This document shows positions 7,523-46,642 of a DNA stretch of 64,000 nt, in pieces; within the stretch, counting starts at the first letter, position 1, and every line of letters starts with the position of its first letter. Made by a program: the position numbers and the translations under genes. A model generated the notes under the pieces. That model worked only from the letters and a program-made list of their open reading frames with translations, searched no databases and was not told the origin of the DNA. Origin of the DNA: Nostoc sp. 106C (GTDB taxonomy: Bacteria > Cyanobacteriota > Cyanobacteriia > Cyanobacteriales > Nostocaceae); assembly GCF_002154725.1 (NCBI RefSeq), contig NZ_MTAW01000147.1:1-64000 (forward strand), read 5' to 3'.

Positions 7523-7552
7523 TTTAACCGTTTGCTATCTATTTCTTAACGT
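7523..7552 (+). promoter_or_regulatory. Pho-box-like repeat upstream of the 2950-residue phosphatase
   Basis: TTTAACCG at 7523 and CTTAACGT at 7545 are spaced exactly 22 bp, twice the 11-bp period of the cyanobacterial Pho box (8-bp PyTTAAPyPyT units with 3-bp spacers). A degenerate unit lies between, and both spacers are TTT. The site is 292 bp before the start codon, which implies a long leader. This is inferred from the motif; SphR/PhoB binding is not demonstrated. Confidence 0.45.
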
Positions 7553-7604
7553 TATCAAGATAACTTGGTTAACTGAATGAATATCAATTAATAATCATAA
7601 TTCT

Positions 7605-7628
7605 GTAGGGTGGGCAATACCTACCCTC
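7605..7628. repeat. GTAGGGTGGGCA-type dispersed hairpin
   Basis: An imperfect inverted repeat (GTAGGGTGGGCAATACCTACCCTC) belonging to a family seen at several other intergenic places in this window (17194, 28094, 32814, 33098, 37150). It is preceded by AT-rich AATTAATAAT-like sequence, as is the copy at 17194. Confidence 0.6.
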
Positions 7629-7843
7629 CGAAGTCTTAATAAATAATTGAGGATTAATAAATATATATAAATAACATAGAAATTCAATTACTTATTTAAC
7701 AAAAATAATTATTTTAATAATCCTTAAACATGAGATTTATTCCTAAATTAAAATTTAATTTTATAAATGCTTATTATTGAAAATTTATCTTTTTAAAGAA
7801 TCGCGCTTATTCTCTAAAGCACAATTTACCTCAAAGCTAATTT

Positions 7844-10800
7844 ATGCCAACTACCAACACAATCCGCTTTTCCCAATTCAATGCTTCCCTGAATCGCAAT
7901 GCTGATGGTCAGTTAATTACTGATTTATCCACACCTAATAATGCTCAGGTGAAAGCTGTTGCAGAAATCATCCAGCGCAACAATCCTGATATATTATTAG
8001 TCAATGAGTTCGACTACGTGCAGGAAAATCCTTTACAAGCAGTTCAATTACTTCAGCAAAATTATCTTGCGGTTAGCCAAAATGGTGCAACTCCTGTTAA
8101 CTATCCCTACTTTTATATTGCTCCAAGTAATACAGGAATCGCTTCTGGGTTTGACTTAAATAATGACGGTAAAGTTGTAACGACCCCAGGCGCACCAACA
8201 TACGGCGATGATGCTTTTGGATTTGGCAATTTCCCTGGTCAATATGGGATGTTGCTGCTTTCCAAGTATCCTATTGATACTGCCAATATCCGCACCTTCC
8301 AAAATTTCCTATGGAAGGATATGCCCGATTCTTTACTTTCTACTATCTCAACACCAAATTCTAATACTCCTTGGTATTCCCCAGAAGAACAAAACACTTT
8401 ACGCCTTTCTTCTAAGAGTCATTGGGATGTACCGATTAAAGTTAACGGCGAGACAATTCACGTCCTTGTGAGTCATCCCACACCACCAACTTTTGATGGA
8501 ACCGAAGATCGCAACGGTAAGCGCAATCATGATGAGATTCGCTTTTGGGCAGATTACATCACCCCTGGTAAAGGCGATTACATCTATGATGATGCGGGAA
8601 AAAAGGGCGGGATTGCTTCTGGTTCAAGCTTTGTGATCATGGGTGACCAAAATGCTGACCCTGTAGATGGTGATAGCTTTGACAATGCAATTCGCCAACT
8701 ATTACAGAACCCTGGCATCAATACTAATGTCATCCCCACCAGTCCTGGCGCACCGCAACAATCAGCTCTACAGGGTGGTGCAAACGTTAACCAAAAAGGG
8801 AATGCTAATTTTGATACCGCAGATTTTGCTGATAGTGCTCCTGGTAATCTGCGGACTGACTATGTACTACCCTCAGCAGATTTGAGTATTAGCAATTCCG
8901 CAGTGTTCTGGCCTGCAAACTCTGACCCAAACTTTCCATTAGTAGGTACTTATAACGCCAGCCTTCCTGGTGGTTTCCCCAGTTCCGACCATCGTTTAGT
9001 ATATGCAGATGTGGTAGTGGGGCCAACAACAGCAGGGAAAACGATTCCCGATGTAGAATTTTTGGGGCAAACTATATTACCTACAGGCTTTATTCCCTCA
9101 GGTGCGGCGGGAACGGTAAATGGCGTACAAACCGCTTTGGGTGGGTTGTCTGGTGTCGCCTATGATGCAGCTAAAAACCAGTTCTACACTATTTCTGACG
9201 ATCGCTCTCAATTTGCTCCCGCCCGCTTTTATACTTTTACTACTGACCCTGCGAAAATTGCCACAACTGGGGCGACTTTTACCAATGTTACGCCGCTAAA
9301 AGATGCTAACGGCAATTTCTTCGCTATCAACAGTCTCGATCCAGAAGGCATTGCTTTAACTAACAATGGCACAGTTTTCATCTCCTCAGAGGGTGAGGTG
9401 AATCCAGGTGTAGGTAGGGTGACCAATCCGTTCATTAAAGAATTTTCCCTCACTACGGGGCAGGAAGTTCGCACTTTATCTGTCCCTAAAAAGTTTTTAC
9501 CAGTTGTTCAGGACACTAACGCTAACAGTGTTGTAGATACAGGCGATACTCAAACCGCAGGCGTTTACAATAATTTGGCGTTTGAAAGCCTCACCATCAC
9601 ACCTGACCAAAAAACCCTATTCACTGCCACAGAAAACGCTTTATTTCAAGATGGCCCGAAGGTTTCGACTACAATCGGTAGCCGTTCCCGGATTTTGCAA
9701 TACAACTTGGAAACTGGACAACCAGAAAAAGAATATCTTTACATTACAGATGCATCTGTCACCCCAAATCCAGCTACAGGCGCTACTGATAACGGCTTGG
9801 TGGATTTATTAGCAATAGATAATCGCGGTACATTACTGGCGTTGGAACGTTCTTTTGCACAGGGTGTAGGGAACACGATTAAAATCTACGAAATTTCTCT
9901 ACAAGGTGCAACCGATATTAGCAGTATCGACTCACTCAGCAGTTTAAATGCACTTCAACTAGCTGCGATCGCACCAGTCCAAAAGCGTCTACTGTTGAAT
10001 TTAAATGACCTAAATCTGCCAACAGACCCCAATCATCCGATTACTGGTACAGATAACATTGAAGGTATAGCCTACGGGCCAAAATTAGCTGATGGTCGTC
10101 AATCGATTGTTTTGGTGAGTGACAACAACTTTGGTGCAACTCAATATACGCAAATTTTAACTTTGGATGCAGATTTAGTCACTACCGCAGCGCCAAGAGT
10201 TGAAACCCGTCCTGATTTGTTTGACGATAAGACATTACCGACAGACCAGCGTGCTGATGCTGATGACCCAGCTATCTATATTAACGCCAACAACGCTGCT
10301 GATAGCTTAGTTCTGACCTCAGTGAAAAATGCCGGACTGCGGGTGTATGACTTGTCTGGTAAACTGTTGCAGGAAGTCAATCCTGGCGGTATTCGCTATA
10401 ACAACATTGACCTGCAATATGGTTTTAAATTAGGCGGTCAAACAATAGATATTGCTGTAGCGAGCGATCGCGGTAACGATAAACTAGCAATATTCAAAAT
10501 TAACCCCAATCCCAGTACTCCCGGTAAATATCTCGAAAATATTACCGATAGCAGTCTTGGTACTATTTTCCAAGCTGCACCCTTTCTTGCTCCCTATTCC
10601 TCATCTTCTCGCAGTTCCTACGGACTAGCTTTATATCGTAGTCCCATCACCAATGACTACTACGTCTTTACCAGTCGCCGGGAAACTGGAGATATCGCAC
10701 AGTTCAAGCTGATTGACAAAGGTAATGGCAAAATAGGTGCTGAACGGGTACGAGAATTTACCATTCCTTCCCCTACAGATCCTGAACGTTCAGCTCAAAC

Positions 10801-13800
10801 AGAGGGAATGGTTGTAGACCAGGAAACTGGATTTCTCTACATTGGCCAAGAAGATGTCGGTATTTGGAAATTTCCAGCAGAACCCGACGGCGGTACAACT
10901 GGCAAGTTAATTGATAAAGTTAAAGGCTTGGGTGGTAGTCACCTCATTGATGATGTCGAAGGATTGACTATCTACTACGGTAAAAACGGCACAGGCTATC
11001 TGTTAGCATCCAGCCAAGGTGATAATACTTTTGTTGCTTACACCCGTGAAGGAAACAATGATTATTTAGGTAACTTTGCGGTTGGTAGTAATGGGGGAAT
11101 TGATAGCGTACAAGAATCAGATGGTGCGGATGTTGTTAACGTACCTCTAGGCCCTAACTTCCCCAACGGTTTATTTGTCACCCAAGATGGTTCTAATGAA
11201 CCAGCCAAAATAGTTAGCGATGGCGATGAAGCAGAGAATATCAACTCTAACTTTAAGTTAGTACCTTGGGAAAATATTGCTAACGCCTTTCCCACTCCTT
11301 TAAATATTGACACCACTAGTTACAATCCGCGTAATCCTGTTGCGCAACCCAAACTGACTATATATGATTTTGAAGACCTACCAAAGTTAGGCACAACTTC
11401 CAAAGGCGAAGATATTTTCTTGGGTGGATTTTCTGGGTTATATTTCCAAGGAATTGCACCTAATGGTAATCTCAGATTTGTCACCCACACAGACAGAGGC
11501 CCCAATGGCGAACCTGTTGGTGCAAATAGACCATTTTATTTACCCGACTTCCAACCAGAAATCGTTAATTTTGAACTCAACCGCACTACAGGCAAAATTA
11601 CAATTACCAAGAGAACAGGTTTATTCCGCCAAGATGGTAAAACTCCATTAACCGGACTACCAAATTTACAAGCTGGGGCGAATGGTACAGCATATACAGA
11701 TGAAATTGGCGTTGATTTAGACAATAAACCTCTAGCTAACGATCCTTTAGGTGCAGATTTAGAGGGAATTGTAGTTGCTGAAAATGGTGATTACTGGATG
11801 GTGGATGAGTACCGTCCTGCAATTTACCATTTTGATACTAAGGGTAAATTAATTGATCGGTTTATCCCCAAAGGAACTGCAACTGCACCTAATCCAGATC
11901 AAAGCGCGGGTACTTTTGGTATTGAATTATTACCAGAAGTTTACGCCCAACGCCGCAACAACCGAGGTTTTGAGGCTGTGGCTTTAGAAGGTTCTAAACT
12001 CTACGCCTTTATTCAAAGCCCAATTGATAACCCTGATGTCGCTAATGATGGAACTTCTAAAGCGTCTCGTAATCTCAGAATTTTAGAGTTTGATATCAAC
12101 AGTAAACAGGTAATAGGCGAGTACTTATATCTTCTCGAAGGTCTACCTGGAACTGACAAAATTGGTGATGCAGTTTCCCTAGGTAATGGCAAATTTACAG
12201 TTGTAGAACGAGATGATAATGGTACATCTGCTGGTAACAAATTAATCTACCAAATTAATTTAGCAGGGGCTACAAACATCCATAATTCTGCTAACTTTAG
12301 CTTGCCAGATGGTAAAACCATTGAACAACTTACTCCGGCTGAGTTAGCATCTGCCAAAATTACCCCTGTCAGCAAAAGCCTAATAGCTAATGCTGCACAG
12401 TTGGGTTACACCGGGGTAGAAAAATTGGAGGGTTTAGCATTAGTTGCGCCCAACACTCTGGCTTTAATTAATGACAACGATTTCAATGTTACTGGTAAGA
12501 CCCCTGCTGAAAGATTGGGAATTTTGGAATTACCAAATAACATAGCAGTTACTAAAGCGAAAACATCCCTGAATATTCTCTTAGTCAATGATGATGGCTA
12601 TCAGGCGAAAGGGATAAATGTTCTCTACAACAAATTAGTTGCGGCGGGTCATAAAGTAACATTAATTGCACCAAAGCAACAACAAAGTGGTCAAGGTACA
12701 GCCCTGGATACCGATAAATTTGGCAAATCCTTGGAGGTTGTCAACTATGAACCAAATAAATGGTATGTCGATGGCAAACCAGTTGTTACCACTTGGGCGG
12801 GAATCGATTACATCTTAAAAGATAACCCCCCAGATTTAGTCATCTCTGGGATTAACGAAGGTGAAAATCTCGGTTTAGAAGGAATCATTTCCGGGACTCT
12901 CAGTGCAGCAGTTTCGGCATTAAATCGCGGTGTGCCTACGATCGCAGTTAGTGCGGGTATTAACTCAGCCGAACGTAGTACAGGTTACCCTAGTACTGAT
13001 AAAGCCTATGATGTTGGTGCTAATTACGTTGTTGATTTAATTTCCCAATTACAAGCAAAACAAGGTAATAATTCAACCTTATTACCAAAAGGTATTGGTT
13101 TAAACGTCAATATCCCCGCAACTGACAAAATTCAAGGTATAGCCTTTACAGAGTTTGATAGTGTAGGTAGTTTTGATTTCAAATTTGGGGAATTACCGCC
13201 TAACTTTGGCACAGGTCAAGGTATACTTTATACTCAAAATTCTTTACCTGCTGGGACAACACCCAAACCATTCTCAGAAGGCGAACAATTCTTAGCAGGG
13301 AGGGTGACGGTAACTCCATTTGATGGCGATTGGGGTACAATTCCAGACCAACGCCAAGCACTGAGTTCTCGCCTTAACTTAGAAGTCCCAGCTTTAACTG
13401 ATGCCATCAAGCCTGCTAGCAAGCCGTTAAATATTTTGCTGGTAAATGATGATGGTTATCAAGCAAAAGGTATTGATGTTATCTACAAGGCTTTAACTGC
13501 TGCTGGTCATAACGTCATCTTAGTCGCACCCAAAGACCAGCAAAGTGGGAAAGGTACTTCCATCAACACCAACAAAATTTTTCAGAATACCGAAGTTGCA
13601 GAATTTGATACCAACAAAAATAAATGGTATGTCGATGGCACTCCAGTTGTCACTACCTGGGCTGGACTTGATTACATCTTCCCCAACAAAGAGAAGATTG
13701 CTAAACCTGATTTGGTGATCTCCGGCATTAACGAAGGTGAAAATATCGGTTTAGATGCCATTTCTTCTGGTACACTCAGCGCGGCGGTAACAGCATTACA

Positions 13801-16696
13801 AAATGGGATTCCCGCGATCGCAGTTAGTGCAGGGCTAGACTTAGCTGGGTTACAAACAGGCGACAAATCCAGCACAGAAAAAGCCTATGAAATCGGTGCT
13901 AGGTTGGTTGTTGATGCGATTAACCAACTCCAAGCCACTCAAGGTAGTAATGCAGATTTACTGCCGAAAGGGGTTGGTTTAAATATAAATATCCCTGCTT
14001 ATAATCCCGATATTGCCAAATTCAGCACAATTACGGGGGTTGCATTTACCAAATTTGACCAAGCTAGCAGCCTGGGTTTAAAGGTTTCTGAGATTCAGCC
14101 TGGCGTTCCTGGTTTAACTTTAGGTGCATCAACCAATACAGGCACAGGGGATTTAGAATCGGAAGGTGGTAGATTCTTAGCACGCAATATTACAATTACA
14201 CCAATTGATGGCAATTGGAGTGCAACCGCAACCAGCCGTCAACAGGTCGCCAACGCCGCCGGAGAAATTCCCGTGAATGCGATCGCAAGTGGTGACACTA
14301 CCCAAAACTCTACAGTTCTCTGGGCGCGGAGTATCTTTCCTGGGGAAGTTAAATTTGAATATTCCACCGATGCTAACTTTAATGCGATCGCTGGGACAAA
14401 AACCATCAGCGTTACGAATATCAACCAGCCTGTGAAAGTTGAAGTTGCTGGTTTGCAAGCGGGAACGCAGTATTACTACAAAGTCACAGATGCAGCTGGT
14501 GCAACCGCAATAGGTAAGTTTAGTACTGCTGCAACAATTGGGACAAAAGCAGGTTTAACATTCGGTATCTCTGGTGACTGGCGGGGAGAATTAGCCCCTT
14601 ATCCAGCTATTAGCAATGCAGATGATGCCAACCTGAAATTCTTCTTTGAATTTGGCGATACCATCTATGCAGACTACCCCTCACCCGGACTGAGAAACCC
14701 AGATGGCACAGAAAAAGCCCAAGCTAAAACCCTAGAAGATTACCGCGCTAAACAAGCAGAAGTCTACAGCGATCGCTATGGCAAAAATACCTGGCAAGAT
14801 TTACGGGCTTCAACTTCTATCTTGGCAACAATTGATGACCATGAGGTAGTCAACGACTTCCAAGGCGGTGAGAATTTAGCAACCGCCTCCGCCGCAGATA
14901 AAGCTTTATACGGTGCGACTTCCGGCTTAGTCAACGACTCGCCTCTATACGAAAATGGTCTGCAAGCCTTCCAAGAATACAACCCCATCCGCGACCAATT
15001 CTACGGTCAAACAGCTGATGCTCGCACCGAAGGAGAACGCAAACTTTACCGCTATAATACTTACGGCAGTGATGCTGCCACCTTCGTTCTTGATGCGCGT
15101 TCCTTCCGAGATCCAGAATTACCAGCTATTACCAACCCCAACGCTCCGGCGCAAGTTGCTGACTATCTTGGAAAATCTTTTAAAAGCGACCGTACTTTAT
15201 TAGGAAAACAACAACTAGAGGATCTCAAACATGACCTCTTGCAAGCTAAGAACGATGGCATCACCTGGAAGTTTATCATGGTGCCAGAGCCTATTCAGAA
15301 TTTAGGGGTGCTGGCAGCGAGCGATCGCTTTGAGGGTTACGCCGCCGAACGCACTGAAATTCTCAAGTTTATCAATAATAACAACATCAGCAATGTTGTC
15401 TTTGTAACTGCCGATATTCACGGTACAGTAGTCAACAACCTCACCTACCAATTAGCGCCAGGCCAACCACAAATTGCTACCAGTGCCTTTGAAATCAGTA
15501 CAGGTTCCGTTGCTTTTGATGCACCGTTTGGCCCTACAGTAGCGGACTTTCTCACCCCTGCACAAAAGACATTCTACAATTCCCTACCTGTAGTTAATGA
15601 TGCCGATAGCCTACCCAACGACAAAGACGATTTCATCAAGCAGGCTATAGACGCTGGTTTAACTCCTCTCGGTTATGACCCTGTGGGTTTGAATAACAAT
15701 CTCCCCCAAGCCCACGGCTTAATCAACGCCAAGCTATTACAAGGAGATTACGTCGCCACCCAAACCTACGGCTGGACTGAGTTTAATATAGACGCCCAAA
15801 CTCAGAAGCTAACTGTCACCACATACGGGATTGAACCATATACCCGTGAGGAATTAGAAGCTAATTCCAGTGCAGTTACTAGCCGTCAACCAAAAATTGT
15901 CAGCCAATTTGAAGTAGATCCTGCTAAAAAACCAGATATCCAATTTGGTTCTGGAAACAGCGATACCATCAATCTCCAGCCCAGTCAAACTATATTCACA
16001 GGTAACGGTGCAGATATTATCGAGGCTACTACAGGAAATACCATCGTGACGGGTAACGGTGATGACACGGTGTTTGCAGGTAGTGACTCTTCTGTATCAA
16101 CAGGCGACGGTAACGATCAAGTCTTTGTTGGTGCTAATGGCCCTGCTAAAAATACTAATGTGGATGGTGGCGCAGATAACGATGAACTCACCATAGTAGA
16201 AGCTAGTGGTAGCAATAATCTATTTGGGGGTGCTGGTTCCGACAATCTTCAGGTAGTTGAAGGTTCTGGTCAATTCCTCTTTGGTGGTTCAGGTAACGAC
16301 ACTCTCACCAGTAACGGAAAGAATAACCGACTTTATGGTGGTTCCGGAGATGACAAACTCTTTGCTAATACCAATGACACCCTAGTTGGTGGTGATGGCG
16401 ATGATGTGTTATTTGCTGGTCAAGAAGGTGCTAACCGCTTGACTGGTGGTGCTGGTGCTGACCAATTTTGGATTGCTAATGGTGGTCTCCCCACGACTAA
16501 GAACATTGTCACTGACTTTACCTCAGGAATTGATGTAATTGGACTTGGCGGTATTGGAGTAACTAAGTTCAGTGACTTAAGTTTATTGCAACAGGGCGAT
16601 GATACTTTAGTGAAAACTGGAAATGTAGAGTTAGCTTCATTACTGAGAATTACCGCAAATATATTGACGGCTAATAACTTCACCTTCATAGGCTAA
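7844..16696 (+). CDS. Giant eight-module secreted phosphatase: EEP, phytase-like, phytase, phytase-like, SurE, SurE, PhoD, RTX-like tail
   Basis: A 2950-residue protein joining many phosphate-releasing enzymes. Order with approximate residues: 1-390 endonuclease/exonuclease/phosphatase fold ([33 protein letters not shown]); 400-780 esterase-like phytase domain; 783-1150 beta-propeller phytase ([13 protein letters not shown]); 1170-1565 second esterase-like phytase domain; 1576-1850 and 1861-2130 two SurE nucleotidase domains (each [32 protein letters not shown]); 2140-2690 PhoD with a beta-sandwich lead-in ([24 protein letters not shown]); 2698-2950 Gly-Asp-rich calcium-binding repeats. There is no N-terminal signal peptide, so type I secretion through the tail is expected. 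The start lacks a Shine-Dalgarno. A Pho-box-like site lies upstream. Likely role: extracellular release of phosphate from phytate, nucleotides, DNA and phosphodiesters. Confidence 0.9.
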
Positions 16697-16770
16697 AGTT
16701 AGTTACACCTGACAGCGATTTTCCGCTGTTATTTCAACAATGAAATGTTTAGTTAAGGTGTACTGATTAT

Positions 16771-16805
16771 TTTAAGGCGAGGGAGGGAGTATCTCTCGCC
16801 TTAAA
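16771..16805 (+). terminator. Hairpin after the first giant phosphatase
   Basis: A perfect 11-bp inverted repeat (TTTAAGGCGAG at 16771, CTCGCCTTAAA at 16795) lies 75 nt after the stop codon. There is no T-run directly behind it, so it may be a weak terminator or an mRNA-stabilising hairpin. Confidence 0.5.
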
Positions 16806-16847
16806 TAGTGTTTCTCTTTCTAAAAAATCTACCTTGAGAAATATTTT

Positions 16848-16885
16848 TAAATTACTAAAAATAGCTATGCATTTTTAGTAATTTA
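16848..16885. repeat. Perfect 15-bp AT-rich inverted repeat
   Basis: TAAATTACTAAAAAT at 16848-16862 is matched by its exact complement at 16871-16885 with an 8-nt centre AGCTATGC. It lies between the first hairpin and the second gene's Pho-box-like sites. It could be a second terminator or a regulator site; nothing further decides. Confidence 0.5.
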
Positions 16886-17011
16886 TTGCTTCTTCCTAAA
16901 TACTTATTTGGTAGAGTCAAACTTTGTTTTTGCAGTCATGGCAATTCAGGGCGGTTTTTCTGACTGGTTCTTCAAAGGTTTAATCTTTTGTTCTATTCAC
17001 GTTATTTTTTT

Positions 17012-17109
17012 CTTAACCTTGGTATGAAATTATAGAAAATATTATTTAAAGTTAGTTATTTAGTAGATTTTAACTATTTGTTTTATCTAACTTATTTCTT
17101 TCTTAACCT
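17012..17109 (+). promoter_or_regulatory. Pho-box-like repeats upstream of the second giant phosphatase
   Basis: CTTAACCT, an exact match to the cyanobacterial Pho-box unit, occurs at 17012 and at 17102. Both sit in a near-identical context: TTT before, TGG and ATGAAA after. Around the second copy an 11-bp period can be followed: TTTAACTA 17069, GTTTTATC 17080, CTTATTTC 17091, CTTAACCT 17102. The array ends about 310 bp before the preferred ATG. Confidence 0.55.
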
Positions 17110-17193
17110 TGGAATGAAAAGCTGATTGATGCTAGTTTAGTCCTCTCATATTGCTACAGCAATCCTAAATTATTAGTGAAAATTAATAATTCT

Positions 17194-17218
17194 GTAGAGC
17201 GGGCATTGCCCACCCTAC
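17194..17218. repeat. GTAGAGCGGGCATTGCCCACCCTAC dispersed hairpin
   Basis: A near-perfect palindrome of the same family as 7605 and 37150, lying in the leader between the Pho-box-like sites and the second phosphatase gene. If transcribed it would fold into a strong hairpin about 200 nt before the start codon. Confidence 0.65.
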
Positions 17219-17419
17219 TAAAAAACTTTCACTGAAATGATCTTCTAGTGAAATCACAATTATGGTGATGCTTGATAGTTAACGGTTCAGCATAAATAAG
17301 TTTATAACTAAATTCCATCCTTGAACCTAAAACTATTAGTTTTGCCCTCACTATATTAGTTTTTGATTCCACTAGAGCTAAGACTAGCTAAACAGTTAAA
17401 CACACGGAGATTCTCTTTC

Positions 17420-20400
17420 ATGGCTAAGAACGTCATCATTATGATTGGGGATGGTATGGGCTGGGAAATGGCTCGTGCTGCATCCATATATAAAGAGATT
17501 CAAAATGGTAAGACAGGCGCTAATCTAAGTGATTTCTATACACAGGGTAAGGGTCAAGGACTGAACTTTCAAACGCTCCAAGGCTACGGTTTAGTAACCA
17601 CTTATGGCACAACGATCGCCGATAGCAAAGGAGTGTTTAATACTGGTAACTCAGCTCTTGACGCTACTAATCCCATCACCGGAGAAAGCCCAGTTCGTCC
17701 TGGTTTCAAATTTGATCCAACTTTTAACCCAGGTAATACCCCAACAGGTGGTGCAAAAGTTAGTGATGGTGCTGTTGGTAATTTAGTAGGTTATGACCCT
17801 GCTAGAGGTGGTGTTAATCCTTGGACTCCCGGTAGTGACCCAGAATATATTAAATACAGCTATCCTGACTCTGCAAACACTGCTACAACTCTCTACACTG
17901 GGGTCAAGAGCTACAACAACGCTATTGGCGTTGATATTTTTGAAGATCCTCTCGAATCGATTTTAAAAACTGCGAACAGTGTTGGTAAATCAACCGGTTT
18001 AGTGACTTCAGTTCCCATTGATCATGCTACACCTGGGGCTGCTGCTGCTAATGTTAACCGTCGCAGCAAGTATGATGGCGACTATCCTGCATTAGATAAC
18101 ATCCTGCAACAGGAACTCCGGGTCTATCAACCAACAGTATTACTTGGTGGTGGTCATCCACTTTCTGCGCCTGGAGACATACTGCCAACAGGGGTTGAGC
18201 CAAATACGAGCAATGAATATATTGGTAAGGATACTTACAAAGAACTTAGCACTAAACCAACTGATAACCGCTACGATTACACCTTTTTAGAACGAGGTCA
18301 GGATGCGGCTAAGAAACTAGCTGAAACTGCGGCGAAACTCGATCCAGAAAAAGGCGATCGCCTCTTCGGTCTCTACGGTGCTCGTGGTCAAAATGGTAAC
18401 TTGCCTGTAAGTTCTGCTAACGGCGACTACAGCACCACCGGTTTAGATATGTTCAGCGTTTTCGCTAACCAAGGTGTTGACGCAAAAGTGGATACCAAGC
18501 GTCCGCTACTTCCAGGGGAGACGGATGCATCTTTTATTGCCAAAGAGGTTAACGAAAACCCCACCCTTAACGATCTAACAAACGCTGCATTAAGTGTGTT
18601 AGGTAAAGACCCCGACGGTTTCTGGTTAATGGTTGAGGGTGGCGATATTGATTGGTCAGCCCATGATGACAACATGGACAACCTCATCGGCACCACATTA
18701 GACTTCGACAAAGCAGTCGGCTCAACAATTGACTGGATTGACAAAAATGGTGGTTGGGAAAACAATCTCCTCATCGTTACTGCCGACCACGATCACTACT
18801 TAACTCTCAACGGTGACTTTCCCACTTTAGTCCAAAATAAAGGTGCTGAAGCGTTAACCAACCTGGATACTCCAGGCGAAGTTGGACATTACTGGGGGTC
18901 TGATCCTAATGTCAAGTATGGTTGGGGAAGCCACGCCAACCGTCCAGTACCCGTTTACTACCAAGGTGCTGGTTCAGAAGTGCTAAATAGCTTGACAGGT
19001 AAAGGCTATGAAGCCTACGGTTATCAGATACCTGGAATTGCGGGTTTAAACGATCAAACCCACATTTACCAGACCATGTTTGCTTCAATAGTGCCCAAAG
19101 TTGAGTTAGTCGGTTTTGCTTCTCTCCCAGCGGATACCTATAGTGATGGGCCGGCTTCTGGTAGCAAAATTTCTGCAAATGGTAGAACAGGGCCTTTTCC
19201 TGGACAGCCAGTACAAGGCTTTAGCGGCGTACAATTCGCTAACAGTAACTCTTTCTACTTTCTGTCAGACAATGGCTATGGTGCTAAAGACAACAGTGCA
19301 GATTTTCTGCTGCGTATCCAACGTTTAGACCCGAATTTTAAGGGAGCAGAAAATGGTGATGGTAGTGTTAAGTTTTTAGACTACATCCAACTATCTGATC
19401 CAGATAAAAAGGTTCCTTTCAAAATTGTGAATGAAGGAACTACAGAAAGAGCGCTGACTGGTGCAGACTTTGATGTTGAGTCATTTGTCCTTGATAAAGA
19501 CGGTAGTATCTGGGTTGGCGATGAATTTGGCCCCTATCTATTACATTTTGATAGCAGTGGTAAGTTATTAGAAGCTCCCATTGCAACACCCGACGAATTC
19601 AAGACTTTAGATGGCAAAGCACCGAAAGTAATTGGTCATAGAGGTGCAAGTGGCTATCGCCCAGAACATACGCTTGAGTCTTATAAGCAAGCTATCGAGA
19701 AAGGTGCAGACTTTATTGAGCCTGACTTAGTAGTTACTAAAGATGGTGTGTTGATTGCTCGCCACGAACCTGCTTTGGCGATTTTGAACGCTGATGGTAC
19801 TGTCAATTTCAGCAATACAACCACAGATGTTTACAAACATCCAGAGTTTGCCGATCGCAAGAAAACTGTAAGTTTGGATGGAACTCAAATTACAGGTTGG
19901 TTTGCTGAAGACTTCACCTTAGCTGAAATCAAGACTCTAAGAGCAGAAGAGCGTTTGCCTTTCCGCGACCACTCCTTTGACGATCAATTACAGATTCCTA
20001 CCCTGAAGGAAATCATTGATCTAGTCAAGGATGTGGAAGCGAAGACAGGTAAAAAGATTGGTATCTACCCTGAAACTAAGCATCCAACTTACTTTCAGCA
20101 AGAAGCTACTTATGTAGGAACCACCGAGAAAATTAACAGAAATATCAGTCAGCTGTTAATCGATACGCTAAAAGCAAATAACTTCACTGACCCCAGCCGC
20201 ATCTTCATCCAGTCCTTTGAAGTAGGTAACCTTAAACAGTTGCATGATGACATCATGCCTAAGGCAGGAGTAGATATTCCCCTTGTGCAACTTCTAGATG
20301 CAAGTGATACCGATATCAACGGTAAGATTATTGAGAGTCAGCCTTACGACTTGAAGGTTAGCGGTGATAAACGCACCTATGGCGATTTGCGAACTCCAGA

Positions 20401-22180
20401 AGGCTTGGCGGAAATTGCCAAATATGCTGATGGTATTGGCCCCTGGAAACGAATGATTGTCAGCGTCAAGGGTACTGATGCGAATGGCGATGGCAAGGCA
20501 GATGATGTCAATGGTGATGGAGCAGTTAATGATGCTGACAAGACATTATTGCCTCCCAGTACCTTAGTTCAAGATGCTCACAAAGCAGGTTTGCAGGTTC
20601 ACCCCTACACCTTCCGTAAGGAAGATCAGTATTTAGCAGCAGATTACAAAGGTAGTTTAAATGCTGAGATTCAGCAATTCTATCAATTAGGCGTAGATGC
20701 ACTATTCACAGACTTCCCAGATATCGGGGATAAAGTGCGGGATCAACTCAGCGATCCTCAGTACAATATAGTGCGATCGCCACAAAATCCTGATGTGCTG
20801 CCTGGAAATGCCTTTGCTAATTTGGGTAGTTCCAAAGGTTTTGAAGGTGGCGCAATCAACGCCAGCAAAACTAAGCTCTATATGCTGTTAGAGGGAACAG
20901 TTCAGGGCGATCCGGCTGGTGCTTTGCGGATTAACGAATTTGATATTGCTAGCCGCAAATACACAGGTAAAGAGCTTTATTACAGATTGGATAATCCGAC
21001 CAATTCAATTGGTGACTTAACAGTCATTAATGATAATGAGTACCTAGTTATTGAACGGGATAATGGTCAGGGAGCTTCTGCTAAATTCAAGCGGATTTAT
21101 AAAGTAGACCTGTCTAAAACCGATGCCAATGGTTATGTAGAAAAACAAGAAGTTGCCGACTTGTTAAATATCCAAGACCCCAACGATCTAAATGGGGATG
21201 GTAAGAAAACCTTTGACTTCCCATTCCAAACTATTGAAGATGTGTTGGTTGTTGACAAAAATACCATTTTGGTAGCTAACGACAACAACTATCCTTTCTC
21301 CACAGGTCGTCCAGGGAGCGATCCTCAAAATCCCAAAATCGACAACAACGAAATTCTGTTGCTGAAGTTGGAGAAGCCTCTTAACCTTGCTCCTGGTGTA
21401 GGTCAGCCCTCAGCGCTAGATATCAATTTTGGTTCTGCCAATAGCGATGATGTTACTCCCAAGCCTGGACAATTTTCAATCACAGGTGATGGAGCAGATA
21501 ATATCGAAGCTACCAATGGTATTTTAATTAACGCTGGGGGTGGTAATGACACGGTACAGGTAGGAAGTAACTCTTCTGTGCTTGGTGGTGATGGTGATGA
21601 TAATATCGTCGTTGGTCAAAACGGCCCTGCCAGCGGTACTGGTGTTGACGGTGGTAATGGTAAAGATACCCTCGTTGTGGCTGAAGCCAGCGGTCGCAAT
21701 AATCTGTTTGGCGGGGCTGGTGCTGACACTCTGGTAGTTATCGAGGGTTCAGGACAATTACAATTCGGCGGTTCCGGTAACGATACCATCACTAGTGGCG
21801 GTAGCAATAACCGTCTTTATGGCGGTTCTGGAGATGACATACTCAACTCCAACACTAAAGATTCCCTATTTGGTGGTGATGGCGATGATGTGCTGTTTGC
21901 TGGTCAAGGAGGTAGTAACCGCCTGACTGGTGGCGCTGGTGCTGACTCTTTCTGGATTGCCAATGCTAGTCTGCCAACTAGCAAGAACATTATCACCGAC
22001 TTTACCCCAGGAATTGACGCGATCGGTATTGGCGGTATTAGTGGAGTGACTAAGTTCAGTGACCTGACGCTTTTGCAACAGGGCAATGATACTTTGGTAA
22101 AAGCTGCAAATACAGAGTTAGCTTCATTGTTGGGAATTACATCAACTACCATCACGGCAAATAATTTCGTTTTTGCATAG
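17420..22180 (+). CDS. Giant secreted phosphatase: PhoA-type alkaline phosphatase, split phytase-like domain with nested GDPD, RTX-like tail
   Basis: About 1586 residues. 1-560: alkaline phosphatase of the PhoA superfamily ([11 protein letters not shown] metal site, [10 protein letters not shown] nucleophile Ser, [37 protein letters not shown]). 565-730: first part of an esterase-like phytase domain ([18 protein letters not shown]). 735-1105: glycerophosphodiester phosphodiesterase ([39 protein letters not shown]) containing a calcium-loop-like [15 protein letters not shown] insert. 1115-1330: remainder of the phytase-like domain. 1333-1586: Gly-Asp repeats as in both neighbours. The frame is open to a TTG at 17363, but ATG 17420 follows GGAGA and starts exactly at the catalytic motif, so I choose it. 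No Sec signal is visible. It should act outside the cell on phosphomonoesters and deacylated phospholipids. Confidence 0.9.
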
Positions 22181-22270
22181 TGCGGTAATTTTCACTAAAG
22201 CTATTTGCAGCTTAAATTCAACAATCAAAGTTAGATAGAATCTGTTTAAGTTGTACTAATTTTTCTCATT

Positions 22271-22298
22271 GAGGGAGTTCTACTCCCTCTCTTTTTTT
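22271..22298 (+). terminator. Rho-independent terminator after the second phosphatase
   Basis: GAGGGAGT (22271-22278), loop TCT, ACTCCCTC (22282-22289), then TC and seven T. The same terminator, with loop ATG, follows the third gene at 27256, within a duplicated 3' region. Confidence 0.9.
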
Positions 22299-22445
22299 AT
22301 CTATATATTAACTGCATCTTAATGTTTAAGATACAGGGGCTAATAGCAAATTCACGCCTCTATCTTAGAGCGGATTTCCTCTATTTTAATTTGTCTTCTT
22401 CAGAGTCTGAGACTCTTGCCTCACAGGAAGATTCAGATTTATAAC

Positions 22446-22475
22446 CTTAACTTGCTTATAACCTTTCTTAAACTT
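22446..22475 (+). promoter_or_regulatory. Pho-box-like triple repeat upstream of the third giant phosphatase
   Basis: Three 8-bp units at exact 11-bp spacing: CTTAACTT 22446, TATAACCT 22457, TTAAACTT 22468, with 3-nt spacers GCT and TTC. This is the best-formed Pho-box candidate in the window. It lies about 350 bp before the ATG. A decayed copy is found at 27361-27379 behind the gene. Confidence 0.6.
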
Positions 22476-22827
22476 TGAAAGATTATCCTTTTATGTGTTT
22501 ACTAAAATTACAGCATTTTAATTATCTACAGCAATTAGTTGTGGATGTATAGCATTTTGTCGCCTAATACTACTTTTCTGTACCAAAAAAACAATTTGAA
22601 ATGGAGATAGGCAATTAATAACAAAGTCCTATGAAGGTGTTTTTCTAAAACTCAAAAAAGCAAACAGATATCTGAATGTACAAAATAGTCATTTATATCT
22701 TGCTTTTTTTTCTATGTGAATGAAGTTACATAAACAGTAAATTTGCTACGACACCTCAATAAGACTATATGTTAGCGACCTTATCTCCCTATTAATTGCC
22801 AAACTAAATACTTAAGGAGTAGCAGGC

Positions 22828-25800
22828 ATGGCTGATACAAACAGCAACGGTAGAAATGTCATTATTTTTGTTGCGGATGGATTGCGAAACGGTTCTGTAA
22901 ATCCAATTGATACTCCAACTTTATATAGCATCCGTCAGCAAGGGGTTAATTTTACCAATAGTCATTCACTGTTTCCTACTTTTACAACCCCGAATGCTTC
23001 TGCGATCGCAACTGGACATTATCTTGGTGATACAGGTGATTTCAGTAACACCGTTTACACTGGCTTTCCTACTCCTAACGCTAATGGCAGTGTCACTCCA
23101 TTTATTGAAAATGATGCGGTTCTAGGCGATATTGACGAAAAGTTTCCTGGTAACAACTTCCTTGATGAAGAGTCGCTGCTTGCTTATGCACGGGCACAGG
23201 GCTTTAATACAGCCGCAATTGGGAAGTTAGGGCCAGTTGCAATCCAAGATGTCACCCAAGTTAACCGCGAAGGTGGAACTGCGGGAACTATTCCCACGCC
23301 AGAGACCGTTATTATTGACGATCGCACTGGCGCAGCAGCTAGCACAACCACAGGTTCACCTCAAGCTGTCCCACTCGATCCTGATATCGTTGCGCGTTTG
23401 ACTGCGGCTGGCTTACCAACAACGACTCCTGGTAGAGGGGCAAATGGCAGTTCTGGTAATAACACAACTCCTGGAACTACAGTTGCGAATGTCGATCAGC
23501 AAAAGTTTTTTATAGATGCTACTACCAAAGCAGTTCTACCCAAGTTTCAGGAAGATGGTAAACCATTTGCCTTGGTTTATTGGTCTAGAGATCCTGATGG
23601 TAGCCAACACAATCAAGGTGATAGCTTAAATAGCTTAACGCCAGGTATCAATGGCCCAACTTCCAAAGCTGGAGTCAAGAATGCTGATGATAACTTAAAG
23701 CAACTACTTGATTACCTCAAGAGTACAGGCTTAGACAAAACTACAGATATCTTTATCACCTCCGATCACGGTTTTTCTACCATCAGCAGACAACTTATTG
23801 ATAACCAAGGCACAAAGACCAATAGTTATGCTGCTACTCAAACCTACTCTGATGTCAACTCAGGATTTCTACCAGTTGGCTTTGTGGCGATTGATTTAGC
23901 TCATGATTTAGGTCTACCTTTATACGATCCTGATAACAATACAATCACTCCTCTAAACATCAAGGACATTGAGTATGGGGCTGTTGATGCTACAAAAGGT
24001 CAACATCCCAAGTCTGGAAATGGCGTGATTGGTGGTACAGGTAAGGTCATAAATGGCCAGCTTGACCCAAGCACGAAGGTAATTGTAGCTGCTAATGGTG
24101 GCTCGGACTTGATCTATCTACCTAATGGTGATGCAGCGACAGCAAAGCAAGTAGTTGATTTACTCTCTCAGAAAGACTATATCAGCGGAATTTTTGTAGA
24201 CGATGCTTATGGAAAGATTCCAGGTGCATTACCACTGAGCACTATTGGTCTGAAAGGTGATGCTCAAACACCGACTCCAGCTATAGTAATTAATTTCAAA
24301 ACCTTCAGTACAGACCCCAATAATCCCAACAATCCGCAAGCAGAAGTAGAGATTGCAGATACAGCTTTGCAGGAAGGACAGGGGATGCATGGGAGCTTTG
24401 GTCGCGGTGATACCTTTAATAACATGGAGGCTATTGGCCCTGACTTCAAAGCGGGTTATGTGGACTCTGCGCCTGTGAGTAATGCTGATGTCGCACCCAC
24501 ACTTGCCAAAATTCTAGGGTTGAATATTCCTAGTAATGGTGATTTGAAAGGTCGAGCAGCTACCGAGGCATTAGTAGGCGGGCCTGATACAGTTGCCTAT
24601 ACTAAAGGAACTTTAACTTCTGAAGCTGCGGCCAACGGTCAAGCAACAATTCTCAATTATCAAACTGTAGGCGATACTAAATACTTTACAGCCGCAGGAT
24701 TTGGCGATCGCACTGTCGGACTAAATGCAAAACCAGCTTTTTCTGGTGTCGCCGCAGGTGATGCGACTGCAAATAGTGCCATTCTTTGGACTCGTACCTT
24801 TGATGCCACAACTAATCAAGGTATCAGTACTAACCTGAAACTCGAAGTTTCAACCGATCCCAACTTTACTACTTTCCTTTCCTATGCTGGAACCACCAAC
24901 CCTAACCGCGATTACACGCTGAAGGTTGATGCTACTGGTTTAAAGAGTGGAACTCGCTACTACTATCGCTTTGAAGCAACACCAGGTGATTTTAGTGCAG
25001 TTGGGACTTTCAAAACAGCGCCAGATCCAACTGCTCAGGTTCCTGTGCGATTTGGTTTTAGTGGAGATGCTGATGGTCTGATGCGACCTTATATATCTAC
25101 CCAAAACTTCCCGCAATTGAATTTAGACTACTTTGTGTTCTTGGGAGACACAATTTATGAGACTGCAAGTAATGGATCTCCCGCCGCTGCCGATGCTGTT
25201 GCTAACCCGACCCAGGCTTTAGCCGATTACCATCGCAAATATCTGGAGAACATTCAACCAGTTTCCAAAGGTGGCTTTGCTAGTTTGGAAACAATGTTTA
25301 CTTCTCAAGGCAACTATACAGTCATAGATAACCACGAACTAGGAAATAAACAGCTGATCAATGGTGGCGCGCCCAGTGTTTTAGCTAGTACTTCCGGTAA
25401 TGGTTCCAACAATTCAGCTTACGACGCGAATACAACTGGTACGTTTATTAATGACACTACCGGATTTAAAATCCTAGAACAAGCTTATTCTGATTACGAG
25501 CCAATTCGGGAAAAAATTATCTCTGCTCCCAACGATCCGCGTACAGATGGTACTCAGCAGCTTTACCTTGCTCAACAGTGGGGTAAGAATGTTATTTATG
25601 TGAACACAGACACTCGCTCTTACCGCGATGTTCGTCTGAAACAAGCCGATGGTACGACAGATGATACTGGTTCTCGTGCGGATAATCCCAACCGCACCTT
25701 ACTAGGAGCCACTCAACTGACTTGGCTGAAGCAAACTCTTCTGGACGCTCAGAAAAATGGCACAACCTGGAAGTTTGTGAGCGTATCTGACCCCATCGAT

Positions 25801-27165
25801 CAAATTGGTGCGATCGGGTCTGGTGCGGATGGTGGTAAGTCATGGATTGGCGGCTATCGTGCGGAACGCAATGACTTGCTCAAGTTTATTGCTGATAATG
25901 GCATTAAGAATGTGGTCTTTCTGGCCACTGATGACCATCAAAATCGGATCAACGAGTTAACCTACTTGGATAATATCAACGATCCTACTAGTGTTAAGGT
26001 TCTGCCCAATGCTTTATCAATCGTTGATGGGCCTTTAGGTGCGACTGGCCCCGATGTCATTACCGACCACAGTTTCAGCAATATTAAATCTCTGGCTGAT
26101 ACCTTGGCGGCAACTCAAATAGCAGCTAAAGTAAACCCCATCGGCTTAGATCCTAATTTCCCTGGACTCAAAAATGTTGTGCGTGAAGGCGATCCAAATG
26201 CCGATACTTTACGACAACCAATTGATTTCTATTCACCTGATACCTTTAACTACACCACTTTTGATATTTCTGCTGATGGCAAAACATTGAATGTGAATGT
26301 GCAAGGAATTAATTCTTATGCAAAAAATACATTCCCAGAGCCATCAGCAGCAAATCCTGTGCGATCGCTTCTCAGCTTTAGTCTTGATGCTGCACTACCA
26401 CCAGATATTCAATTTGGTTCTAGCAACAGCGATAATGTTACCCCTAAGACAGGACAAATTCTGTTTACAGGTGATGGCGCAGATACGGTAGATTCAACCA
26501 ACAGCAACACCATTATTACCGGAAACGGCGATGATACCGTATTTGCAGGCAGTAACTCTACTGTATACAGTGGTGACGGTAATGACCAAGTGTTTGTTGG
26601 CGTCAATGGACCTGCTAACAATACCACTGTTGATGGTGGTACAGGTAATGATCAAATCACCGTAGTGGAAGCCAAGGGTAGTAATAGCCTGTTTGGGTCT
26701 GCTGGTTCTGATAGCCTGCAAGTAGTTGAAGGTTCAGGTCAATTACTCTTCGGCGGTTCTGGCAACGATACCATCACCAGTAACGGCAACAATAACCGTC
26801 TCTATGGTGGTTCTGGGGATGACAAACTCTTCTCCAATGTCAATGACTCCCTATTTGGTGGTGACGGTGATGATGTGCTGTTCGCTGGTAACAAGGGTGG
26901 TAACCGCCTAACTGGTGGCGCTGGTGCTGACTCTTTCTGGATTGCCAATGCTAGCCTCCCAGCTAGCAAGAATATTGTCACCGACTTTACCCCAGGAATT
27001 GACGCGATCGGCATTGGCGGTATTACTGGAGTTACTAAGTTCAGCGACTTAACGCTGTTACAACAGGGCAATGATACTTTGGTGAAAGCTGCAAATACAG
27101 AGTTAGCTTCATTGCTAGGAATTACATCAACTACGCTCACAGCAAATAACTTTGCTTTTGCATAG
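22828..27165 (+). CDS. Giant secreted phosphatase: nucleotide pyrophosphatase/phosphodiesterase type, PhoD, RTX-like tail
   Basis: 1445 residues. 1-590: type I phosphodiesterase/nucleotide pyrophosphatase domain of the alkaline phosphatase superfamily ([10 protein letters not shown] metal site, [16 protein letters not shown] with the nucleophile Thr, [18 protein letters not shown]). 636-735: beta-sandwich PhoD lead-in. 740-1186: PhoD-type phosphatase ([25 protein letters not shown]). 1191-1445: Gly-Asp calcium-binding tail nearly identical to that of the second gene. AAGGAG about 14 nt upstream of the ATG is a strong ribosome binding site. No Sec signal is visible. The PhoD motif reads DNHE where the first giant protein has DDHE. 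Expected role: extracellular hydrolysis of phosphodiesters and nucleotides. The gene ends in its own terminator. Confidence 0.9.
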
Positions 27166-27255
27166 TGCGGTGATTTTCACTAAAGCTATTTACAGCTTAA
27201 ATTCAACAATCAAAGTTAGATAGAATCTGTTTAGGCTGTACTAGTTTTTCTCATT

Positions 27256-27282
27256 GAGGGAGTATGACTCCCTCTCTTTTTT
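27256..27282 (+). terminator. Rho-independent terminator after the third phosphatase
   Basis: GAGGGAGT (27256-27263), loop ATG, ACTCCCTC (27267-27274), then TC and a T-run. It is the duplicate of the terminator at 22271. Confidence 0.9.
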
Positions 27283-27438
27283 ATCTATTATTAACCGAAT
27301 CTTAAGGTTAAAAAAAGCTAGTAGATTTATGACTCTTTCCTATACGGATTTTTTTGTATTTACAACCTTTATTAAATTTTGAAAAATTATCCTTTTATGT
27401 GTAGAAATCCGTTTTGATTCCTGAAATTATTTGTGTAG

Positions 27439-34269: not shown

Positions 34270-35448
34270 TTAGAAAATATCAGCCGGGTCTGCGGAACGC
34301 AGTTTATTGATAGCGAGTGACCCAGAAGTTAAACACATTAAAATTGCTGAAACTAAGACCAGTAAGGCATTATTAAGGGTCATCATAATTGGCAGCTTAG
34401 TGGCTTTCATGGCAAAATCGTATAGCAGCACGGATAAAATAAATCCGGGTATAAAACTTAAAATTGCCAATAATAAAGCTTGTTGAAAAACCACATTTAA
34501 TAAGTATTTATTTGCATAACCCATTGCTTTTAATGTTGCATAAGCAACAAATTGAGTAGCAATGTTACTGTAGAGAATTTGATAAACAATTACTACACCT
34601 ACAACAGCAGCCATTGTCAACATCAGGTTAAGAATAAAACCAATTGGTGTTCTGACAGCCCAATATTGTTTTTCAAAATCAATAAAACCCTGATATGTAA
34701 AAATTTGGACATCATTAGGTAATGTGGCTTGTAAATTTTTTAAAACCTTGTTTGCATCTGTGCCAGGTTTTAAGGTAACTACGCCCACATCTATCATTTC
34801 TGCTGGACGAGTATTGGGATTTATCCGCAGAAAAGTTGAGTCACTAACAATTAAATTACCATCTACACCAAAGGAAGGCCCCAAGCTGAATAAGCCTCCT
34901 ACTCTGACGCGATAACCAATTAAAGAATTAAAGGGAAATATTTCAACTGTCTGTTCAGTGTTACCTTGATCGTATCTTTCCGCAATCGGCCCAAATTCTG
35001 GACGTGAATCCCGGTCAAAAAGCATCATATCCGGAATTTTGAGTTTGTCTAAATTCTCCTCAACTTCTGGGATATTTAAAACAGATCTTCCGGGATCAAA
35101 CCCAATAACATAGATTGAGTATTTCTCACTATTTACCGGGTTTTTCAACTTGGCAAATTGCAAATACATGGGGCTAACTGACTCGACACCATCAAACCCC
35201 AAAGCTTGATATAAACGAGTTCGCGAAAAACTTTGATTTGAGGTCAAAGACTTGTATTGAGAACTGACTAAAAACAAATCTCCTCGCAGACTTTGATGGA
35301 CTGCGGTAGCACTAGAATAGAGTGCGTCTTGAAAGCCTAGCTGAATAAACATCAGCAGCACAATAAAAGCAATCCCCGCTACAGCTACCAGAAAACGAAC
35401 TTTTTGCTGGACTAGCTGTAGCCATGCTAAAGGAATTTTAAAATTCAT
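34270..35448 (-). CDS. hgdC: DevC-type ABC exporter permease, HgdC-like
   Basis: 392 residues of the FtsX/MacB-like permease family. There is one N-terminal membrane helix (FLVAVAGIAFIVLLMFIQLGF), then a large extracytoplasmic domain (about residues 45-255) and three C-terminal helices (near 260-375). The N-terminus, IPLAWLQLVQQKVRF, is typical of cyanobacterial DevC. With the DevB-type fusion protein upstream it would form the inner-membrane part of a glycolipid exporter for the heterocyst envelope. In Anabaena the pair all5347/all5346 (hgdB/hgdC) serves this layer. No ATP-binding DevA partner gene follows; hgdA-like epimerase takes its place. Confidence 0.85.
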   Translation of the reverse strand: MNFKIPLAWLQLVQQKVRFLVAVAGIAFIVLLMFIQLGFQDALYSSATAVHQSLRGDLFLVSSQYKSLTSNQSFSRTRLYQALGFDGVESVSPMYLQFAKLKNPVNSEKYSIYVIGFDPGRSVLNIPEVEENLDKLKIPDMMLFDRDSRPEFGPIAERYDQGNTEQTVEIFPFNSLIGYRVRVGGLFSLGPSFGVDGNLIVSDSTFLRINPNTRPAEMIDVGVVTLKPGTDANKVLKNLQATLPNDVQIFTYQGFIDFEKQYWAVRTPIGFILNLMLTMAAVVGVVIVYQILYSNIATQFVAYATLKAMGYANKYLLNVVFQQALLLAILSFIPGFILSVLLYDFAMKATKLPIMMTLNNALLVLVSAILMCLTSGSLAINKLRSADPADIF

Positions 35449-35464
35449 GAATTTAGTTAACAGG

Positions 35465-35648
35465 TGTTATTTGTTTTTTTGTCATTTGTTCTTTGTCATT
35501 TGTCCTTTGTTCTTTATCATTTGTCCTTTGTCCAATGACCAATGACTCATGACTCATGACCAATGACTCATGACCAATGACTAATGACTAATGACCAATG
35601 ACCAGTGACCAATGACTAATGACCAGTGACCAATGACCAATGACTCAT
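35465..35648. repeat. Heptameric short tandemly repeated repeats between hgdC and hgdB
   Basis: The gap is filled by two families of 7-nt units: TTTGTCC/TTTGTTC on the left, then AATGACC/AATGACT/CATGACT on the right. Together they can pair partly as complements. Such STRR sequences are known from heterocystous cyanobacteria. They sit inside the presumed hgdBC transcript. Confidence 0.8.
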
Positions 35649-35650
35649 GA

Positions 35651-46404: not shown

Positions 46405-46642
46405 TATTTTTTCCAAATCACTACTCGTTATGCTCCTAAATTAGCTGATAACGCCAAAAGCGCCAATTAATCAAAGCTTAATTAGGGCAGTATGTGTCGT
46501 GCGGTGTTATTCCAAAAAAAGCATTTAGCTTTTGCAGATAGGGTAGCTACCTGCTTATTAAAACAGATAGCTTTCATTATTGCTAGGCACAGAAATTACT
46601 GTTGCTGCGCAATTCACAGTCCCCCAGATTAGTCTATGTCCT

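Follow-up and report, generated by a model that had tools for sequence, protein, structure and literature searches.

Why should three neighbouring genes each string several phosphatase-type modules onto the same kind of tail, and how did such chains come to be assembled? The question is raised by a stretch of 64,000 nucleotides (nt) from Nostoc sp. 106C (contig NZ_MTAW01000147.1, positions 1 to 64,000), hereafter the window, whose plus strand carries three giant open reading frames (ORFs): P1 (7844-16696, 2950 amino acids), P2 (17363-22180) and P3 (22828-27165, 1445 amino acids). P2 encodes 1605 amino acids from a TTG at 17363 or 1586 from an ATG at 17420 with GGAG ahead of it, the ATG being most likely the start. 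We propose that P1-P3 are quite probably phosphate-starvation exoenzymes that leave the cell by type I secretion and have evolved by module exchange, mostly at fixed joints. The comparisons described below support a predicted secreted phosphorus-scavenging set built by shuffling.

An earlier note on this DNA had described three giant neighbouring proteins of 2950, about 1586 and 1445 residues with a common Gly-Asp tail, holding between them one EEP, one beta-propeller phytase (BPP), three Phytase-like (PL, PF13449), two SurE, two PhoD, one PhoA, one GDPD and one NPP module. The ORFs are found as claimed, and a Pfam search of all three proteins, from which the modules were assigned, returned every one of these families, with E-values from 3e-145 to 5e-26 for the named enzyme families; because of these values, and of open homologues in other genomes, a chance origin of the modules is excluded. 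The tally needs one refinement, namely that the GDPD splits the third PL. In P1 (EEP-PL-BPP-PL-SurE-SurE-PhoD-RTX, an order repeated in genomes G095, G108 and G035, loci L014-L016), the EEP module (Exo_endo_phos, 7931-8992, 4.9e-26) is followed by a first PL propeller (9134-10132, 310.9 bits), the BPP (10241-11332, 3.9e-83), a second PL profile match (11420-12484), SurE a (12569-13153), SurE b (13433-14053, 54.8% identical to SurE a), PhoD_N plus PhoD (14282-15523) and the RTX tail (15929-16693). P2, which ORF, Pfam and relatives define as PhoA-PL[GDPD]-RTX, opens with a PhoA head (17420-19075, 5.6e-52, with matches to alkaline phosphatases in the PDB). It continues with the third PL (19205-21292), whose halves at 19205-19651 and 20786-21292 cover profile positions 1-118 and 117-284 and enclose a GlpQ-like GDPD (19637-20722, 5.9e-45), and closes with its tail (21410-22177). 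P3, NPP-PhoD-RTX by ORF and Pfam, has an NPP-type head (Phosphodiest, 22828-24726, 5.7e-30), PhoD_N plus PhoD (24745-26001) and a tail (26392-27162). Aligned pairwise over 252-254 positions, the three tails share 66, 72 and 76% identity. A single operon is not required: the intergenic gaps measure 647-723 nt, and Pho-box-like sites precede both P1 and P3, P2 having only a degenerate one.

Are the modules likely to be working enzymes? Motifs were searched, and found, in the EEP, both SurE, both PhoD, the PhoA, the GDPD and the NPP modules, and we take them to have their usual catalytic meaning. The EEP has NEFD, GDQNAD and SDHR; both SurE copies have NDDG and SGINxGxNxG; the PhoD modules of P1 and P3 have GDTIY and D[ND]HE; the PhoA head, partly aligned with 3wbh, has metal-ligand and nucleophile motifs; the GDPD has HRG/PEHT, ExD and the metal-site Glu; and the NPP head has a Thr nucleophile and metal-binding Asp/His motifs. 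Alignments with PDB entries were made for BPP, PhoD, PhoA, GDPD, NPP and SurE a. The BPP agrees with Bacillus phytase in sequence (1poo, 6.9e-69) and in predicted fold: within a fair structure model of EEP-PL-BPP (pLDDT 80, pTM 0.82), this part matches 1qlg with a TM-score of 0.88 by target length. The GDPD matches E. coli GlpQ (1ydy, 3.3e-34) and, by fold, 1t8q. The relation of the NPP head to ENPP4 is weak (1.5e-8), phmmer gave no match for the EEP in the PDB at 0.01, and beyond phytases a fold search with the EEP-PL-BPP model returned nothing but extended, loose alignments, largely with propeller proteins. Demonstration of the nested propeller by structure was abandoned, as the AlphaFold2 model of PL plus GDPD is weak (mean pLDDT 67, pTM 0.53, first PL half poor); the nesting therefore rests on profile positions and relatives.

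Export is predicted from the tails and from the absence of cysteine. Pfam HemolysinCabind is found in all three proteins, with five to seven GGxGxD motifs per tail, and P1, P2 and P3 together contain 0 Cys in 5981 residues, as against 115 in 11,246 for 20 other ORFs of the window. Counting the window's three, we collected 133 RTX-tailed ORFs with an enzyme module; their 191,414 residues include 37 Cys, and 107 of the ORFs have none. Of 48 further enzyme-module ORFs that lack a tail hit (cut, divergent-tailed or stand-alone), 29 are also Cys-free. Very low Cys content is usual for RTX proteins without strictly defining them, and its absence here fits type I secretion cargo. In P1 the first Pfam enzyme match starts at residue 30 and in P3 at residue 11, so that there is scant space for a signal peptide, for which the N-termini of P1-P3 were judged by eye only. 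Five HlyB-type ABC transporter genes score above the curated cut-off elsewhere in the same genome and, together with the tails and the lack of Cys, support the predicted export of P1-P3.

Exclusion of Cys may even extend into an active site. Cys124 of Bacillus subtilis PhoD, a ligand, is replaced by Asp in both PhoD modules of the window, and Asp stands at this site in 27 of 28 multi-module PhoDs, a set that includes the window's two and in which the remaining row has a gap there. Of the stand-alone PhoDs of the same genome, that of L007 has Cys here and that of L006 has Asp, in a poor alignment. On the strength of Pfam we continue to call the window modules PhoD-like, albeit with an altered ligand, and the change from Cys to Asp seems to be a consequence of Cys exclusion.

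Candidate sites for phosphate control surround the genes. Triple 8-mers with a period of 11 were scored at 127,940 sites on both strands of the window, using weights set from a YTTAAYYW consensus; in Synechocystis, according to the available part of PMC11126600, PhoB recognises three direct repeats with a TTAA core, and mutation of any one reduced or abolished binding. The four top-scoring sites all lie on the plus strand within the trio cluster: 5' of P3 (22446-22475, score 16.25, the best), in the P2-P3 spacer (22296-22325, 15.5, second), 3' of P3 in surroundings that resemble the region behind P2 (27279-27308, 15.25, third), and 5' of P1 (7523-7552, 15.0, fourth, with GCTATCTA as its middle repeat). 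The region marked in the earlier note starts at the first base of the last of these, 7523, and ends, at 27282, inside the site at 27279-27308. P2 has a degenerate plus-strand repeat at 17080-17109, kept in six of seven aligned PhoA- or PhoX-headed sequences (window included), the L125 piece being without it. In relatives, with starts set mechanically and counting upstreams of at least 300 nt outside loci L001-L012, a score of 15 or more is reached by 35 of 78 P1-type, 9 of 10 P3-type and 4 of 26 P2-type upstreams, as against 17 of 307 for other ORFs and 0.5-1.3% of shuffled upstreams. Periods of 8, 9, 10, 12, 13 and 14 reach this score in at most 5 of 78 P1-type upstreams and at most 5 of 10 P3-type ones (period 10 in both cases). 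As controls from the same genome, sites occur 5' of pstS-like genes in L158 and L161 (L162 repeats the L161 site) and of both stand-alone phoX genes (L166, L167); L159, L164, L165 and L168 have no Pho-box-like site. Published induction points the same way: in the accessible text of PMC9846622, a Nodularia GDPD with a phytase domain shows log2 induction of 4.6 and 5.5 at days 7 and 14, and an atypical alkaline phosphatase 5.5 and 3.8. The Pho-box-like sites, along with this induction of similarly annotated genes, support a link of the trio to phosphate.

How the chains were assembled can be followed in relatives. Among 145 genomes of the family, this one included, matches at E <= 1e-100 to parts of P1, P2 and P3 are found in 114, 129 and 59, respectively, so that a search for the same set, as the earlier note had advised, shows the trio to be an elaborate representative of a type common in cyanobacteria. 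P1 recurs at full length with 86-90% identity in the three genomes that repeat its order and P2 with 85-93% in G056, G134, G122, G108 and G059; among the matches listed, full-length P3 is found in its own genome only. In at least six genomes (G000, G029, G059, G090, G134 and G142), matches of all three types are found no more than 25 kb apart, the third gene of G029 being without NPP. A simpler trio, consisting of (EEP-)PL-BPP(-PL)-RTX, PL[GDPD]-RTX (headed or headless) and NPP, is present in at least 8 of 78 named loci (L034, L035, L038, L040, L047, L050, L067 and L070), a count limited by contig and locus ends and in which L034 may be the contig of G134.

The supposition of domain shuffling is borne out by module orders, breakpoints and in-place exchange of heads. 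Across all fetched loci, 160 distinct complete ORFs (the window's three included; identical ones dropped, near-identical ones kept) show 41 labelled module orders, a few of which are fragments of broken genes and all of which ignore module-free stretches. Breakpoints fall mostly at module joints. Relative to P1, 75 of 85 internal starts of matches lie at residues 2690-2709, and the ends cluster at 1560-1579 (29 of 74) and 1160-1179 (22 of 74); relative to P3, 70 of 79 starts lie at 1180-1199 and 16 of 18 ends at 630-639; relative to P2, 22 and 23 of 56 starts lie at 550-569 and 1330-1339. The ends in P2 are less clean, with 9 of 29 at 1130-1139 (the GDPD-PL border), 8 at 550-569 and 5 at 1150-1159, inside the PL. 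Six of the 74 P1 ends, at 1340-1359, also fall inside a propeller, the second PL, probably at the point where relatives carry a GDPD. A tandem GDPD pair occupies the same point of the PL in 14 proteins, and also in L150-L152 and L156; L075, where one GDPD appears in two pieces, was not counted. Plasmid spread was considered and rejected: 44 records matched a PL-GDPD-RTX query and 17 an EEP-PL-BPP query, none over more than 80% of the query.

The genome holds other members of these families, namely an NPP protein of 1499 amino acids on C115 (L126), a 2506-residue PL protein on C169 (L137), a 394-residue PL on C237 (L106) and two stand-alone PhoDs on C240 (L127). The first of these (L126:1727-6223) is Cys-free and joins NPP to a lactonase-type propeller and a Phosphoesterase-family domain. 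Elsewhere, a Reyranella (alphaproteobacterial) record contains EEP-PL-BPP with RTX repeats (L086:9953-14320), its best segment 52% identical to P1, which could reflect either transfer or contamination. In Nostoc sp. T09 (L028:3399-8870, best segment 96% identical), the P1 gene is split after the EEP, within the first PL, into two ORFs.

The clearest exchange is that of the P2 head. Ahead of PL[GDPD]-RTX, PhoA is found in the window, G056, G108, G122, G134, G059, L033, L035 and L040; a PhoX pair in loci such as L047, L122, L125 and L136; a single PhoX in L124; and a divergent PhoX in L138-L140 (mutually 96-97% identical; Pfam PhoX 3.8e-9 in L139). Headless PL[GDPD]-RTX also occurs. Two loci of the same genus as the window, PhoA-headed L130 and PhoX-headed L139, are 78% identical in DNA over 354 nt upstream, and match P2 of the window at 85% (L130, whole protein) and 82% (L139, amino acids 556-1586), yet blastp finds no similarity between the L130 and L139 heads. 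In a quick tree of 57 PL modules with one support value (by head, 23 none, 14 fused to P1, 10 PhoX, 9 PhoA and 1 other), the head labels need 14 changes where 4 is the minimum possible, and PhoA and PhoX are mixed within a four-member clade with support of 98. PhoA-RTX stands as a separate gene adjoining PL[GDPD]-RTX in L044, L145, L147 and L150-L152 (L148 is apparently the L044 contig), and for this reason the PhoA head of P2 probably arose by fusion of a neighbour. What is new here, as far as sequence comparison can tell, is that within one genus the place between promoter and PL(GDPD)-RTX body, both of them conserved, is taken either by PhoA or by an unrelated PhoX. Downstream, L130, L138, L125 and L140 have a gene family in common; in L130 (1104-3281), the one member searched with Pfam, it is DUF4114-Calx-beta-RTX, and it recurs as a neighbour of P2- and P3-type genes. 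A DUF4114 gene adjoining nsp7010 is among the phosphorus-induced genes in the available part of PMC9846622.

Tails appear to have been homogenised between adjacent genes. A tree of 79 tails, from hits covering more than 90% of the tail model, largely tracks gene type (17 label changes versus 35.7 in shuffles) and also groups some tails of different genes from one genome: P2 and P3 of G116 (support 99), P1 and P2 of L038 (99), P2 and its neighbour in L131 (98), and P2 and P3 of L067 (91). The window's P3 tail groups with its P2 tail and that of G056 P2 (95). In the window, P2 and P3 are 80.5% identical in DNA over 917 nt, extending about 149 nt beyond the P2 stop. Pieces resembling the P2-P3 spacer also occur 3' of P3. 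The pattern fits tandem duplication and gene conversion, which the tree cannot separate case by case.

If these features are put together, PhoB would activate the three genes from their Pho boxes, and the Cys-free chains would exit unfolded through a TolC-type system whose genes lie elsewhere, with the C-terminal RTX tail as guide, to fold on contact with outside calcium. Carrying several hydrolases, one secreted molecule could attack several substrate classes: phosphodiesters (GDPD, NPP, EEP, PhoD), monoesters (PhoA), nucleotides (SurE, NPP) and phytate (BPP). The phosphate released would be imported by Pst, presumably to the benefit of the cell. Over evolutionary time, promoter and tail would stay constant while the catalytic heads come, go or give way to others (PhoA for PhoX), recombination homogenising the tails of adjacent genes. 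A bolder generalisation, which we put forward tentatively and with somewhat less than even confidence, is a plug-in secretion platform, where a fixed Pho promoter and a PL(GDPD)-RTX body flank a slot for unrelated heads of differing metal need (PhoA being, we assume, a zinc and PhoX an iron/calcium enzyme), the tail serves as both recombination arm and export ticket, and Cys exclusion forces ligand swaps such as that of PhoD.

The same separate PhoA-RTX neighbours, and the duplication traces just described for P2 and P3, are also what would be expected if the union of modules were a by-product of recombination, adjacent RTX-tailed Pho genes having been fused by deletion or unequal crossing-over, with ordinary phosphatase parts combined and heads exchanged without benefit. 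We regard this as a serious, if less probable, explanation: the enzyme modules that were checked have kept their motifs, the breakpoints lie mostly at joints and Cys is nearly absent throughout, and these three features together suggest selection on the fused proteins.

A different fate for the proteins, as surface-bound enzymes of the sheath or S-layer whose RTX tail anchors them so that phosphate is freed near the filament, seems the less likely one. Large size would be expected to limit diffusion, and cyanobacterial RTX proteins include S-layer proteins, themselves Cys-free, in the portion of PMC3034196 available. However, Pfam finds no known anchoring domain in P1-P3, and the Anabaena phosphatases All0207, Alr4976 and All2843, likened to P1-P3 by description only, are reported from exoproteomes in the accessible part of PMC4390845. 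A draft-assembly artefact is very improbable as the origin of the P3 fusion or of the giant ORFs. In its favour, the assembly is in 240 contigs, NPP-PhoD-RTX occurs once in 160 ORFs and no other full-length P3 is among the matches listed; against it, P1 and P2 have full-length relatives (86-90% and 85-93% identical), which have no bearing on the P3 joint.

Several observations nonetheless weigh against our preferred reading of phosphate-regulated, type I-secreted exoenzymes. No type I secretion ABC gene was found beside the trio among neighbours named by Pfam, and an FtsX/HlyD pair nearby resembles, we believe, a DevBC/MacAB-type exporter. PL has no sequence relative in the PDB, its activity thus being putative, and the PL plus GDPD model is too weak to establish a closed propeller. 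The NPP-PhoD-RTX order is confined to the window, where a draft-assembly join is possible. On the regulatory side, the middle repeat of the P1 site is without TTAA, and many P1-type relatives have GCTAGCT at this position; 43 of 78 P1-type upstreams score below 15; the best score for P2 is 13.25; and the P2-type signal is unspecific, because a period of 8 reaches 15 in 3 of 26 upstreams, nearly as often as a period of 11. Among the controls, sites in L160 and L163 are not directed at the target gene, leaving some pstS-like loci without an oriented site. Finally, both weights and spacing were assumed, and the period of 11 differs from the Pho box of 8-bp repeats with 5-bp spacing given in the part of PMC6713934 available.

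Earlier work already covers the modules as well as RTX export and the Pho induction of comparable genes. Reportedly (Ray et al. 1991), Synechococcus PCC 7942 has a large atypical alkaline phosphatase outside the classical PhoA type, a single gene as opposed to the trio here and likened to it by description only. In Nodularia spumigena CCY9414, nsp6490 (two GlpQ domains and a phytase domain) and nsp7010 (atypical alkaline phosphatase of the esterase-like-phytase family) are induced by phosphorus limitation; they are likened to P1-P3 by annotation only, and exchangeable heads on a common tail are not described in the accessible text of PMC3610870 and PMC9846622. RTX exoenzymes exported by type I systems have C-terminal Gly-Asp repeats as in P1-P3, and the available part of PMC3034196 predicts four phytases and five phosphatases as RTX proteins, whereas it does not describe multi-phosphatase chains with module exchange. 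Exoproteomes of Anabaena (alkaline phosphatases, PMC4390845) and Synechococcus (alkaline phosphatases and a phytase-like protein, PMC4949707), as far as these sources are accessible, contain proteins comparable with P1-P3 by description only. A GDPD/esterase-like-phytase protein on the Deinococcus radiodurans megaplasmid (NC_000958) is 53% identical over PL[GDPD], its match stopping before the RTX tail; the identity implies that PL and GDPD were paired before the cyanobacterial proteins arose, and nested GDPD as a cyanobacterial novelty is ruled out. In the literature searched, which left most subscription journals outside, we found no account of the exact trio, as the earlier note had expected, and no description of the head exchange. 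It is not the trio itself that is novel but the platform of exchangeable heads, together with the Cys-free rule and the ligand swap that goes with it.

Phosphorus limits many waters where filamentous cyanobacteria bloom, and plug-in exchange of enzymes, if true, would amount to an evolving toolkit for life on scarce phosphorus. Multi-hydrolase chains with interchangeable heads would show how bacteria can quickly retool nutrient acquisition, and those who engineer secreted enzymes could readily draw module borders and linkers from them. The exchange of PhoA and PhoX at one locus makes zinc versus iron limitation of phosphatases testable in close relatives, and the Cys-free rule offers an easy way to ask if active-site chemistry is constrained by export.

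By Pfam name, no neighbour of the trio in the window is an obvious phosphate gene. Upstream are an epimerase, an oxidoreductase, a 598-residue ORF without a family and a Rieske protein; the 598-residue ORF (2524-4317, minus strand) has a long Asn-Pro-rich repeat after a signal-like start and a Pfam hit below cut-off only. Downstream, on the opposite strand, are glycosyltransferases and, close to them, the FtsX permease and HlyD-type adaptor (34273-36850, minus strand). A CHAT-TPR protein of 1249 amino acids (40956-44705) has weak NACHT/AAA matches and belongs to a type that, we understand, is often tied to signalling or defence. Farther on, a polyketide-type cluster (46580-63613) comprises KS-AT-ACP, KR-DH, KS, KS, PfaD-type and thioester reductase genes followed by a CAT-fold protein, and presumably resembles the heterocyst glycolipid (hgl) cluster.

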